From the NCBI GenBank assembly GCA_013334655.1, contig JAAXXD010000020.1:1-33493 (forward strand): a stretch of DNA of 33,493 bases, written 5' to 3'. The notes beneath the pieces are model-generated. The model did no database searches. It was not told the DNA's origin and was given only the letters and a program-made list of their open reading frames with translations. The DNA is from Chlorobaculum sp. GTDB lineage: Bacteria; Bacteroidota; Chlorobiia; Chlorobiales; Chlorobiaceae. Each line of letters opens with the position of its first letter. Position 1 is the stretch's first letter. Positions 4,211-15,858 of the stretch are shown here, one piece after another. The position numbers and the translations under genes are program-made.

Positions 4211-4435
4211 TTATGGCGCAATGACGGGATGGTCAAGCTTCTGGCTGGCATATTTGAGAGCGACCAGAACGGCCTCTTTTTCAAGATCGGGCAACTCTTC
4301 GATGATTTCATCCTGATTCAAACCAGATGCAAGTAGGTCGATAATATCAGTCACCCTGATTCGCAATCCCCGAATACAAGGCCGTCCACCGAACTTCTCG
4401 GGATCGATGGTAATCCTTTTCTGCCACTCGATCAT
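4211..4435 (-). CDS. DUF433 domain protein (putative antitoxin)
   Basis: A 74-residue DUF433 protein, starting MIEWQKRITIDPEKFGGRPCIRG, of which IxxDPxxxGGxPCIRGxRI is the family hallmark. It continues with a helix-turn-helix-like segment, VTDIIDLLASGLNQDEIIEELPDL. An ATG 75 bases upstream is in frame, but the family begins at the chosen start. DUF433 proteins are generally encoded beside a DUF5615 PIN-like toxin and are regarded as its antitoxin (VapB45-like). No such partner is seen on either side, so it looks orphaned. The gene lies 34 bases downstream of a Phd-like antitoxin gene on the same strand. Confidence 0.8.
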   Translation of the reverse strand: MIEWQKRITIDPEKFGGRPCIRGLRIRVTDIIDLLASGLNQDEIIEELPDLEKEAVLVALKYASQKLDHPVIAP

Positions 4436-4469
4436 GGTAGCCTCGCATGTTTTCAGTTTCCTGAAAATT

Positions 4470-4691
4470 TCATCTATTACCCGTCCAGAATGCGTCCGGC
4501 AACGTTTCATCGAAATCGGAACTGCTCCTTATCGCTCCTGCGTGCAAGCCTGCCGCACCCACAGATACAGGCACAAACCGCGCTACGGGCTTCATTTTGT
4601 CCGTGAGAACCCACTCTACCCCTGAAGTGATTTGTGACAGCATCTCTTGCAGTCGCCTTTGGACGTCCTTTACATCAATGTGTCTGGTCAA
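4470..4691 (-). CDS. Phd/YefM-like antitoxin, orphan
   Basis: A 73-residue protein resembling type II prevent-host-death antitoxins usually paired with VapC-type PIN toxins. It has an N-terminal DNA-binding part with a conserved VQRRLQEMLSQITSG segment, then a K-P-V-A-R-F strand, then a flexible tail LHAGAIRSSSDFDETLPDAFW that in this family wraps the toxin. The expected toxin gene directly downstream is absent and replaced by the DUF433 gene. A strong palindrome lies 63-96 bases upstream (4754-4787) and could be its operator. Confidence 0.75.
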   Translation of the reverse strand: MTRHIDVKDVQRRLQEMLSQITSGVEWVLTDKMKPVARFVPVSVGAAGLHAGAIRSSSDFDETLPDAFWTGNR

Positions 4692-4844: not shown

Positions 4845-6113
4845 TTATTTTTCTCTAATCTTTTCAAGATAAATTTTTTGCAACTCTGGAACGCCAGATA
4901 ATAAGATTTCAGCTTCACTCATATCAAGAATATAAATTTTCCCGCGTCTATTATGCAAAGTTAAAAATTTCATACCTATACTTTTACAAAGAGCTTCTCC
5001 CTCAGGCGTAAATGCATTTGCACATATATTCTTAACATAAACTCCACTTTCAGCCAACTCTGTTATTCGTTTTATAAAACCATCATACAGCATGCGATTG
5101 ACCTTATAGCCACGATATCCTTTTAGGACTGCAACAATAATAAAATAGATATCATAAATACCAGGTATACCTAAAAATCTCATATTCTCGACAGTAATTT
5201 CTTCATCTTCAATCTCGCCACTCTTTACTCGCTTGAAAAAATAATCTTGGAGAGCAACAAAATGCCAATAACCTATAATTTTTAGTGTATCATCAACGAC
5301 AAAAACAAAACCATCTGGATTGTTTTCTACTACGGGTTTCCACTGGTTTAAATTTCCGGCAGCAGTATCATCCAAACCTGTTATCGTATCATAATCCATC
5401 ATTAAGAGTTCTGTTATAATATCATCAATTGTTCTACCTCTACTCTCTAAATCCCGTAAAGAAACCACAAAAAGACTATCTCCTCGTATTTTCCCTGGCA
5501 ATAATTTTTGTAGGGGTTTTTGAGTAGATAAAATTATCTGTTCAACTTCTGATTTTTTCAACAATACAGGAATCTGATGCCCTTTTATCCCAGCCATTTG
5601 AATAGCACTTGTTCCAAATCTATAAGCTACCTCTATCGTTTTTCCTGCAAAAAGTGCGTCATAAAATCCAACAGCAAACTCAATTGCGGCCCTATCTCCA
5701 ATTGATCTACTCATACCAATAACATATTCAATATGGGTCACAATAGATTTTGCCTGAATTTCTGAATAACATGCATTTAACAGAACACATTTGACCTTAT
5801 CAGAAAACAGTTCAAAAAGTCCAGATAGTGCCTCAGTTGACACCAAGCGCATACTTCCATTATCATCTTCTAAAGCTAATCCCTCATCACCGACTCCATG
5901 CCCACAAAAATGCACAATATCAGGGGAATGGTCTAGTATTGCTCTTCTCACATCACGCGGCCTTACTGCCCACTGTTGAAGCAATTCATATTGGGTACGA
6001 TTTTTTCCCCTACGAAGACCTTCATCAATTTCTCTTACTTCCTCATCTAAGTTCAATGGAACAGTGCCTTTAGGGTTTGCTGCAAGAACTAAAATACGAG
6101 TGCGTTTTGACAT
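4845..6113 (-). CDS. CHAT-domain protease-like protein with GNAT-like C terminus
   Basis: A 422-residue two-part protein. Residues 1-190 form a CHAT (caspase-like) domain, starting RILVLAANPKG. The predicted catalytic His is in HFCGHG (His72) and the Cys in LLNAC (Cys115), with the usual later block AIEFAVGFYDALFAGK. Residues about 210-400 look like a GNAT acyltransferase fold: a central strand and turn FIIVAVLKGYRGYKVNRML at the acetyl-CoA-binding position, then NAFTPEGEALCKSIGMKFL, typical of the last GNAT helix and strand. The second Gly of the R-G-x-G loop is Lys here (YRGYKV), so cofactor binding is uncertain. The gene is strikingly AT-rich against its GC-rich flanks and lies among orphan antitoxins, suggesting acquisition by transfer. 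A role in conflict or signalling is inference from CHAT proteins in general. The protease call is strong by motif and the GNAT call moderate. Confidence 0.8.
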   Translation of the reverse strand: MSKRTRILVLAANPKGTVPLNLDEEVREIDEGLRRGKNRTQYELLQQWAVRPRDVRRAILDHSPDIVHFCGHGVGDEGLALEDDNGSMRLVSTEALSGLFELFSDKVKCVLLNACYSEIQAKSIVTHIEYVIGMSRSIGDRAAIEFAVGFYDALFAGKTIEVAYRFGTSAIQMAGIKGHQIPVLLKKSEVEQIILSTQKPLQKLLPGKIRGDSLFVVSLRDLESRGRTIDDIITELLMMDYDTITGLDDTAAGNLNQWKPVVENNPDGFVFVVDDTLKIIGYWHFVALQDYFFKRVKSGEIEDEEITVENMRFLGIPGIYDIYFIIVAVLKGYRGYKVNRMLYDGFIKRITELAESGVYVKNICANAFTPEGEALCKSIGMKFLTLHNRRGKIYILDMSEAEILLSGVPELQKIYLEKIREK

Positions 6114-13237: not shown

Positions 13238-13293
13238 GGCATTGCTCTCTTTTCGATTCTGTGATTCCCGTTTCATCAGCGTATTTCTCATCG

Positions 13294-13369
13294 CGGCGAC
13301 GGCAAGATTCGAACTTGCAACAATCAAAGGTTTTGCAGACCCCGGTTTCAACCCCTCACCCACGTCGCC
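13294..13369 (-). tRNA. tRNA-Cys (anticodon GCA), divergent structure
   Basis: The minus strand folds as a tRNA. The acceptor GGCGACG pairs with CGTCGCC in full. The anticodon arm is GGGGT-CTGCAAA-ACCTT, with anticodon GCA (Cys) and two G-T wobbles at the stem base. The T arm is GCAAG-TTCGAAT-CTTGC, five perfect pairs. Oddities: only three clean D-stem pairs (GGT/ACC), no spare base at position 26, a variable region of eight bases (TGATTGTT) where bacterial tRNA-Cys has four or five, and G at the discriminator position instead of the expected T. No CCA is encoded. It ends 56 bases before the sulfite reductase start on the same strand, so it probably heads that operon. Confidence 0.85.
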
Positions 13370-13741: not shown

Positions 13742-14821
13742 CTACTCCCCACACGCCAACTTCCCGTTTTCAATGAGATTCAATTCAATTACCGCTTTTT
13801 GAGGGTTTCTCAATAAAGCGGGATCGCTATCAAGTTTGATCATCATTTCTGGAGAAATCGTTTCAATAAACAACTTTTTTGTACCGCTTACCGAAGTTTT
13901 GATGATGAGTATTGAACCCAACCGAATCGCAACTTCATCCAATTCATGATCATTATTTATTTGAGCCAATAGTTTAGCAGCAGCATCAGCAAGCGCGGCT
14001 GTAGTTTCAGCAGATGGCTTCCTTATATATGCAGCCTCAAGAGCCGTCTTTCCTTTACCATATATATCCCCCAATTCCTTACTTGTTTTATCTCCTTTTA
14101 AAACATACTTTAATCGCTCAAAAAAACTTCCAATAATCGGCTCTTCCTCAGCCTCATACTCAAATCCACAGGCACCCAAGAAATCATCAACAGCAGTAAG
14201 CAATCGCTCAATTGTCATCTGCTCAATATCAGATTGTGGAATATTTATCTCGACAACTGCATTTCGATTGTGACGCTGCCTCCAGTACCTTGTCGGCACT
14301 TCAGTTAATCGTTCAACATCCTTCAGATTGGCTCCCACCAGAATGGCTTTCTCCAAATTGGCTCCCACCAGATTGGCTTTCTCCAAATTGGCTTCTTTTA
14401 GATCAGCTTTCTCCAGATTGGCTCCTACCAAATTGGCTTCTTTCAGATTGGCTCTCTCCAGAATGGCATAATACAGATTGGCTTCCCCCAGATTGGCACT
14501 CTCCAGATCGGCATAATACAGATTGGCTTTCCCCAGATTGGCTCCCATCAGATTGGCTCCTTTCAGATTGGCTCCTTTCAGATTGGCTTTCTCCAGATTG
14601 GCTCCTACCAGATTGGCATAATGCAGAGTAACTCTATCCAGATTGGCTTTCGCCAAATTTGCTCCCTCCAGATACGTATCATTCAGATTAGCTTTCGCCA
14701 GATTAGCCATCGGCAAATTAGCCTCACTCAAATCGGGCTTAATATCAGGATTCTTATACCTCCACTCGTTCCAAGCCATAATACCCTGCTTAAGAATCTC
14801 CAGATGCTCAGAGTTTGCCAT
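13742..14821 (-). CDS. Pentapeptide-repeat protein with uncharacterised C-terminal domain
   Basis: A 359-residue protein. A short N-terminal helix ends with [19 protein letters not shown], a common entry into pentapeptide repeats. Residues 30-167 hold about 27 consecutive A(N/D)LxxANL-type repeats, predicted to fold as a right-handed quadrilateral beta-helix. The C-terminal 180 residues are not repetitive and not recognised: an acidic linker (EAEEEP), a helical part (about 225-290, including [20 protein letters not shown]) and a mixed alpha/beta end. There is no signal peptide or membrane helix, so it is likely cytoplasmic. The gene is more AT-rich than its neighbours and stands alone. Pentapeptide proteins include gyrase protectors and effector-linked proteins, but nothing here assigns a role. 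Confidence 0.85.
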
Positions 14822-15054: not shown

Positions 15055-15381
15055 TCAGGCGTCGGCGGATTTGCGCTTTGGCTCCAGCTTGATCACCAGA
15101 TCACAGCCGACGGCTTCGGCATATTTTCTCAGCGTGGCGATGGAGGGCGAGTGCTGGCTGCCGCCTTCGAGTCTGGAGATCGCGCTTTTGGTCGTGCCGA
15201 TCTTGCTGGCAACCGCTTCCTGCGTCATGCCAGACTTCTTTCGCGCTTCAAGCAGCTCCCTGATCAGCGCGTACTTGGGTTCAAGCGCTTCATATTCCCT
15301 GCGGAACTCCTCATCCTCAAGATCCTTCTGGATCTCTGCCTTAACATCATATCGTACCGGCTGATATTTCAAATCTTCCAT
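15055..15381 (-). CDS. higA: HigA-like XRE antitoxin
   Basis: A 108-residue DNA-binding protein with an Xre/Cro helix-turn-helix at about residues 44-96 (GMTQEAVASKIGTTKSAISR then LEGG). It ends with a positively charged tail. It starts on the TAATG overlap with the toxin gene upstream, the toxin-first order typical of higBA modules. It should bind and neutralise the toxin and repress the operon. The N-terminal 35 residues are acidic (DLEDEEFRREYEAL) and probably contact the toxin. Confidence 0.85.
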   Translation of the reverse strand: MEDLKYQPVRYDVKAEIQKDLEDEEFRREYEALEPKYALIRELLEARKKSGMTQEAVASKIGTTKSAISRLEGGSQHSPSIATLRKYAEAVGCDLVIKLEPKRKSADA

Positions 15382-15701
15382 TATTGAACCTCCTGCAATC
15401 TTTTTCGGGCAAGCTGCAACTCTTTTTGTGGTGTTTTCTGCGTCTTTTTGATGAAGCTATGCAAAATGATGATCTTTTTGCCTTTCACATAGCAATAAAA
15501 TACTCTGCCGATACCATCCCGGCCTTGCGGCCTCATCTCGAACAATCCGTCGCCCATAGCTTTGGTATGCGGCATCCGTACTTGCGGGCCATACTCCACC
15601 AACAACAGCGAAATTTTTCTGAAATCCGCCTTGATGCTCTTCGGCCAGCCGTTTATATCCGCCTTAATACTCGGATGAAAATATTCGATTTCATAATTCA
15701 T
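15381..15701 (-). CDS. higB: HigB-like RelE/ParE-superfamily toxin
   Basis: A 106-residue phage-derived Gp49-like/HigB toxin. The start at 15701 (MNYEIEYFHPSIKADI) fits the family; an earlier ATG adds a non-family extension. Conserved features are MPHTKAMGDGLFEMRPQG (the L-x-G-LfElR block) and FYCYVKGKKIIILHSFIKKTQKTP (the core strand and the K-K-T-x-K-T-P basic end). Such proteins are usually ribosome-dependent mRNA interferases that cut translated mRNA. It overlaps the antitoxin start by one base (TAATG). The module appears intact. Confidence 0.87.
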   Translation of the reverse strand: MNYEIEYFHPSIKADINGWPKSIKADFRKISLLLVEYGPQVRMPHTKAMGDGLFEMRPQGRDGIGRVFYCYVKGKKIIILHSFIKKTQKTPQKELQLARKRLQEVQ

Positions 15702-15858
15702 GGCAAAAGTTAGCGAATATGCGAACCAACTAAAAGCGAGTGTCGAAGAAAAATGCGGAAAATCCCGCCGGTAAATCCAACCCAAACCATACTCGATCCT
15801 CACCTACCACAGAAATACCGGAAACACGGTACGCGGGAGACGTGAATTCTGCTTACCT

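Follow-up and report, generated by a model that had tools for sequence, protein, structure and literature searches.

A CHAT protease domain joined to a divergent GNAT-like domain in an AT-rich insert of a Chlorobaculum genome

We found that a gene in an AT-rich insert of a Chlorobaculum sp. genome encodes a 422-residue protein, P0001, that combines an N-terminal CHAT domain, predicted to be a caspase-like protease, with a C-terminal half that appears to belong to a small and divergent family of GNAT-like domains. The gene lies in a 33,493-nucleotide stretch of DNA that was analysed as a whole and is here called the window (Table 1). Our tentative reading, to which we give a nearly even chance, is that P0001 is a conflict effector encoded by one gene and gained by horizontal transfer, with its CHAT protease gated by the GNAT-like domain; the conflict role would probably be anti-phage or cell suicide.

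Table 1 Features of the CHAT and GNAT-like gene and of its neighbours in the insert (window positions).
Feature	Position	Strand	Evidence
Gene for the 422-aa CHAT and GNAT-like fusion protein P0001	4845..6113	-	ORF call, ATG start
CHAT protease domain (predicted), residues 5-187	5553..6101	-	Pfam, PADLOC, 8tl0 match, structure model
Codon of predicted catalytic His72 (HFCGHG)	5898..5900	-	Aligned with HFIGHG of 8tl0; invariant in relatives' alignment A6
Codon of predicted catalytic Cys115 (LLNACYS)	5769..5771	-	Aligned with LNACC of 8tl0; invariant in alignment A6
Linker between the CHAT and GNAT-like domains, residues 188-205, boundary approximate	5499..5552	-	Low model confidence from residue 194 on
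GNAT-like domain, residues 206-422	4848..5498	-	Bdellovibrio relative, family profile, Pfam-positive members, PDB profile search, hhalign
Degenerate CoA loop RGYKVN, residues 334-339 (canonical R/Q-x-x-G-x-G/A)	5097..5114	-	Alignment A4, hhalign, 29 local GNATs
DUF433 antitoxin-like gene without visible toxin partner	4211..4510	-	Pfam E 2.6e-22
73-aa ORF, Phd/YefM-like by eye only	4470..4691	-	No Pfam match

The open reading frame is a real gene, and it was the sole CHAT gene detected in the 2.4-Mb genome, which is 84.5% complete. Its GC content is 0.359 and its GC3 0.232, versus a GC of 0.57-0.61 in the flanking genes and a GC3 of 0.71-0.81 in cysA, tetR and the genes next to them. This foreign composition, which agrees with an earlier note made from the same DNA, is best read as horizontal acquisition. 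The insert is located in a slot between cysA and tetR whose content varied in relatives. The slot of one relative (G012) contained a transposase-like gene and a gene for a Sel1-type repeat protein, both family names being assigned by eye, and in another (G017) about 157 bp separated the tetR side from the final match to the end of cysA, cysA being a 3' remnant only with other genes upstream of it. Given these contents, the slot is variable and offered no clean empty site.

DUF433 was the only recognised neighbour inside the AT-rich insert, and no ORF of at least 70 aa that might serve as a toxin partner was apparent in the window beside the antitoxin-like genes. The earlier description of adjoining orphan antitoxins was therefore retained for the DUF433 gene, and for the 73-aa ORF it depends on a resemblance seen by eye; that no dedicated partner gene is visible was borne out in the window. 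The neighbourhood in the window is not a defence island, as the gene is surrounded by sulfate assimilation genes, tetR and DUF433. No cas10, cmr or csm gene was recognised among the neighbouring ORFs, and no CRISPR RNA family matched in the window. Elsewhere in the window, the opposite end of the sulfate-transport cluster carried a UPF0175 antitoxin-like gene (401-652, + strand), and a second AT-rich stretch contained a gene for a pentapeptide-repeat protein (13742-14821, - strand), with a tRNA-Cys gene (13293-13369) beside the stretch and a Gp49-like (DUF891) gene (15381-15803) after the pentapeptide-repeat gene.

The CHAT domain spans residues 5-187; it is of the caspase-like protease type, has an intact dyad and is predicted to be proteolytic. 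Pfam PF12770 (CHAT) matched P0001 with 45.9 bits (cut-off 24, E 6.7e-12), the PADLOC "chat" profile matched with an E of 5.9e-19, and the CHAT half matched the sequence of the SAVED-CHAT protein 8tl0 with an E of 3.8e-13. Both His72 and Cys115 were invariant in the 11-row alignment A6 of CHAT relatives, so that the CHAT domain and intact His and Cys proposed in the earlier note are confirmed by Pfam, PADLOC and the 8tl0 alignment. AlphaFold2 prediction of the full protein alone was unusable (mean pLDDT 35.6), and prediction with ten CHAT relatives gave a confident CHAT half (pLDDT 71-94). The modelled half aligned to 8tl0 with a Z of 23.6 over 188 residues, far above all other structures, and the next-best folds were gingipain, C11 proteases, DdvA and caspases (Z 12-14), which places it in the caspase-like fold of CHAT peptidases. 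From the sequence we infer that this half is proteolytically active. In a further CHAT relative, a CHAT-TIR-AAA-type protein of Brasilonema sp. CT11 (L005:8001-10124), the catalytic Cys is replaced by Ser (LMNASYS).

The assignment of the C-terminal half rests on its family, because the half alone gave no significant match to GNAT profiles. Residues 196-422 alone had no match in Pfam, NCBIfam or PHROGs, and this half of P0001 compared singly with a GNAT profile was not significant (hhalign probability 6.8). A tblastn search of the half against 72,556 plasmids returned one relative (E 8e-8), BFD64970.1 on plasmid pBdHM1 of Bdellovibrio sp. HM001, which weakly matches Acetyltransf_1 (E 0.0013). 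A two-row profile (A1) run against 394 genomes of the phylum added four more credible members, L079, L080, L081 and L086; L082 and the weaker matches to this profile were left out of the family. The GNAT-like domain follows an alpha/beta hydrolase in L079 (188-1312, G008:C27), which looks 5'-truncated and whose hydrolase assignment has a Pfam E of only 0.012 and tblastn relatives that include an annotated alpha/beta hydrolase, and it follows a radical-SAM/SPASM protein in L080 (382-1965, G367:C160). The members L081 (1477-2034) and L086 (1336-1878) are stand-alone proteins of 185 and 180 aa, and with 28.1 and 25.0 bits they exceed the Pfam GNAT cut-off of 20.7.

We built a six-row profile (A4) of the domains of P0001, BFD64970.1, L079, L080, L081 and L086. 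Its matches among PDB sequences were mostly GNATs, with GNAT enzymes at the top (best E 0.0014), and its hhalign comparison with 29 GNATs from related genomes gave a score of 43.0 and a probability of 84%, versus at most 15.9 in 40 column shuffles. The core GNAT elements that were aligned in the C-terminal half are beta4 (IYFIIVAV), alpha3 and beta5-alpha4 (GMKF), and the family has in common some 25-30 additional residues inserted between beta3 and beta4. In the AlphaFold2 prediction with CHAT relatives, the pLDDT of this half was mostly below 50, giving no confident model. These results support that the region from about residue 206 to 422 is part of a divergent GNAT family with few members and would adopt a GNAT fold. 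The GNAT features named in the earlier note thus stand by way of the family members and not by the domain alone, and a non-GNAT half, which had been set beforehand as one of two refuting outcomes, is opposed by a sequence that points to GNAT relatedness.

Two further candidates, L024 (from a cyanobacterium, E 5e-4) and L017, were judged spurious on the basis of the overlapping ORFs, and searches of phage and viral contigs returned no match. Stand-alone members were observed in overlapping two-gene units in two genomes of the genus (L089:7767-8967 and L086:885-1878); the gene upstream of the stand-alone member encodes about 150-217 aa, its L081/L089 copy has no Pfam match, and both units (L089 and L086) adjoin the same third gene (281/296 aa).

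The CoA loop of the family is degenerate. At the position of RGYKVN in P0001 the relatives carry QGLAAF, RGLSYT, RGRHYT or more divergent sequences, so that the glycine loop is lost in all six family members, and the motif is kept by most of the 29 local GNATs. Since this loss is family-wide, ordinary acetyl-CoA use, and with it ordinary acetyltransferase activity of the GNAT-like half, appears doubtful. A degenerate loop is no proof that acyl-CoA binding is lost. Of the two options in the earlier note, an acyltransferase or a metabolite-sensing fold, the former was weakened by the degenerate CoA-pyrophosphate loop of the whole small family; the latter seems to fit better, because in members of the same CHAT subfamily this position is occupied by sensors, SAVED among them.

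Comparisons with relatives showed that both domains are swapped. CHAT halves about 51-64% identical to that of P0001 occur in cyanobacteria, where related CHAT proteins with a single fused partner are common; the partners, which follow CHAT in the chain, include TIR with AAA_35, SAVED beside cmr genes (Nostoc) and FGE-sulfatase, and in one cyanobacterial relative a STAND-like NTPase region precedes CHAT. The SAVED case is on a plasmid of Nostoc sp. TCL26-01 (L035:3992-5326), where CHAT comes before SAVED, the order opposite to that of 8tl0, and the gene is located directly after type III-B cmr genes; the FGE-sulfatase (formylglycine-generating-enzyme-like) case is on a plasmid of Calothrix sp. 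NIES-4105 (L033:3989-5515). A genome of the same taxonomic family (G082) encodes a CHAT protein with 44% identity over the CHAT half and an unrelated C-terminal half. Its surroundings (L026:561-14171, G082:C26) are defence-island-like, with an AbiL-like pair, HTH/IrrE-like and PIN genes, the CHAT gene, an unknown 317-aa gene and a type I restriction-modification (RM) system. Some relatives of the CHAT half thus occur in multigene contexts, namely CHAT-SAVED by cmr genes and the G082 protein between AbiL-like genes and type I RM. The second refuting outcome of the earlier note, homologues that always lie in a multigene operon, was thus examined for relatives of the CHAT half, as the search gave no homologue with the full architecture. 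No second CHAT and GNAT protein was found in 86 family, 98 class, 394 phylum and 386 cyanobacterial genomes, sampled at one genome per species, or among the plasmids, and no paper on such a protein was found in the literature searched. Each half occurs with other partners in relatives, and the two are therefore swappable modules.

In the proposed mechanism, the CHAT domain would be the effector, a caspase-like cysteine protease, and the GNAT-like domain without a CoA loop would most likely do the sensing or regulation. When it bound a ligand or protein, or when the oligomer changed, the CHAT active site would be repositioned and might then cleave P0001 itself or a small number of host proteins. 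That the GNAT-like domain is the switch is likely by analogy with SAVED-CHAT and Csx29, in which non-catalytic parts switch CHAT; the domain can probably also function without a protease, since the stand-alone L081 and L086 have the same loop change. We counted the G082 relative, with its AbiL-like and type I restriction neighbours, in favour of defence, and the non-defence neighbourhood, the lack of a second example of the fusion, the low pLDDT of the GNAT-like half and the stand-alone family members against a gated effector. A broader suggestion, which we regard as possible and still rather doubtful, is that this GNAT-derived family lacking the CoA loop, hitherto undescribed, serves as a mobile sensor or adaptor attached behind effector enzymes that are not related to one another, here a CHAT protease, an alpha/beta hydrolase and a radical-SAM protein, in a manner comparable to SAVED/CARF in CRISPR and CBASS effectors.

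The GNAT-like half could instead be an active acyltransferase and itself the effector, perhaps resembling a GNAT toxin, which the CHAT domain processes or releases, as the earlier note proposed. The core elements are present and align to GNATs, and the stand-alone members pass the Pfam GNAT cut-off, but with the glycine loop missing in all members, DUF433 as the only antitoxin recognised alongside rather than one of the GNAT-toxin type, and no sign of a processing site, we consider this quite unlikely. Orphaned or decaying cargo, that is, a gene transferred without its activator or partner genes and retaining little function, would explain why the full architecture appears once only among 86 family genomes, and it agrees with the lack of a partner in the window, the adjoining antitoxin-like gene without a toxin and the mobile-element genes in the variable slot of a relative. 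The 422-aa frame and the dyad are nevertheless intact, and one-partner CHAT fusions are common in cyanobacteria, which makes decay an unlikely account.

A regulatory or maturation protease outside immunity, for example one controlled by stress or metabolites, with the GNAT-like domain binding an acyl metabolite, appears improbable. CHAT can cut a single regulatory protein, as in Csx29/Csx30 (PMC10028731), and GNAT-like domains are also joined to metabolic-type enzymes (radical SAM), but the foreign composition and patchy presence of the gene argue against a core regulatory role.

In bacteria, CHAT proteases are the counterpart of the caspase-type control of cell death, and what they respond to is set by their input domains. 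If the gated-effector reading is true, a CHAT protease with an acetyltransferase-like partner lacking the CoA loop would be an input type absent from the literature searched, and the trigger would more likely be a metabolite or protein than a cyclic nucleotide. The GNAT-like family with its swapped N-terminal enzymes would also provide a concrete set of proteins for testing the sensor idea.

Among known systems, P0001 shares with SAVED-CHAT (PDB 8tl0) the dyad context HFxGHG and LNAC. SAVED is a cyclic-oligonucleotide sensor. In 8tl0, CHAT is located towards the C-terminus (residues 286-467 of 496), whereas in P0001 the GNAT-like domain comes after CHAT; a SAVED or CARF sensor is absent from P0001, as CHAT was the sole Pfam match over the cut-off and the PADLOC SAVED_CHAT match spans only the CHAT part. 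8tl0 belongs to type III CRISPR, whereas the window of P0001 showed no CRISPR genes. The 8tl0 structure is an activated SAVED-CHAT filament, and its CHAT active site is turned on by a region of the protein that is itself non-catalytic (PMC11417357). In Csx29 (TPR-CHAT, type III-E CRISPR), control of CHAT likewise comes from a non-catalytic region of the protein; this regulatory region is far from the dyad and shifts its position, and the protease cuts a single regulatory protein, the sigma-factor inhibitor Csx30, rather than killing (PMC10028731). Csx29 differs in its TPR regulator and Cas7-11 partner, and the structural match is weak (8eey_B, E 1.2e-3). The short CHAT proteins of cyanobacteria are alike in the CHAT half and in having fused partners, but those partners have another fold, and none with a GNAT-like domain was found.

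GNAT acetyltransferases (PF00583) have fold elements in common with the C-terminal half, whereas the family described here lacks the loop glycines and carries the beta3-beta4 insert. BFD64970.1 shares 26% identity with the GNAT-like half across 140 residues but is a stand-alone protein of 213 aa without CHAT. Kaur et al. 2020 (PMC7159879) mention a GNAT effector domain among NTP-dependent conflict systems; P0001 has no Pfam match to an adaptor or NTPase, a comparison that covers P0001 and its window neighbours in the incomplete genome. CHAT proteases with varied partners are thus known, and what is new is the GNAT-like partner, most of the originality lying in the GNAT-like family.
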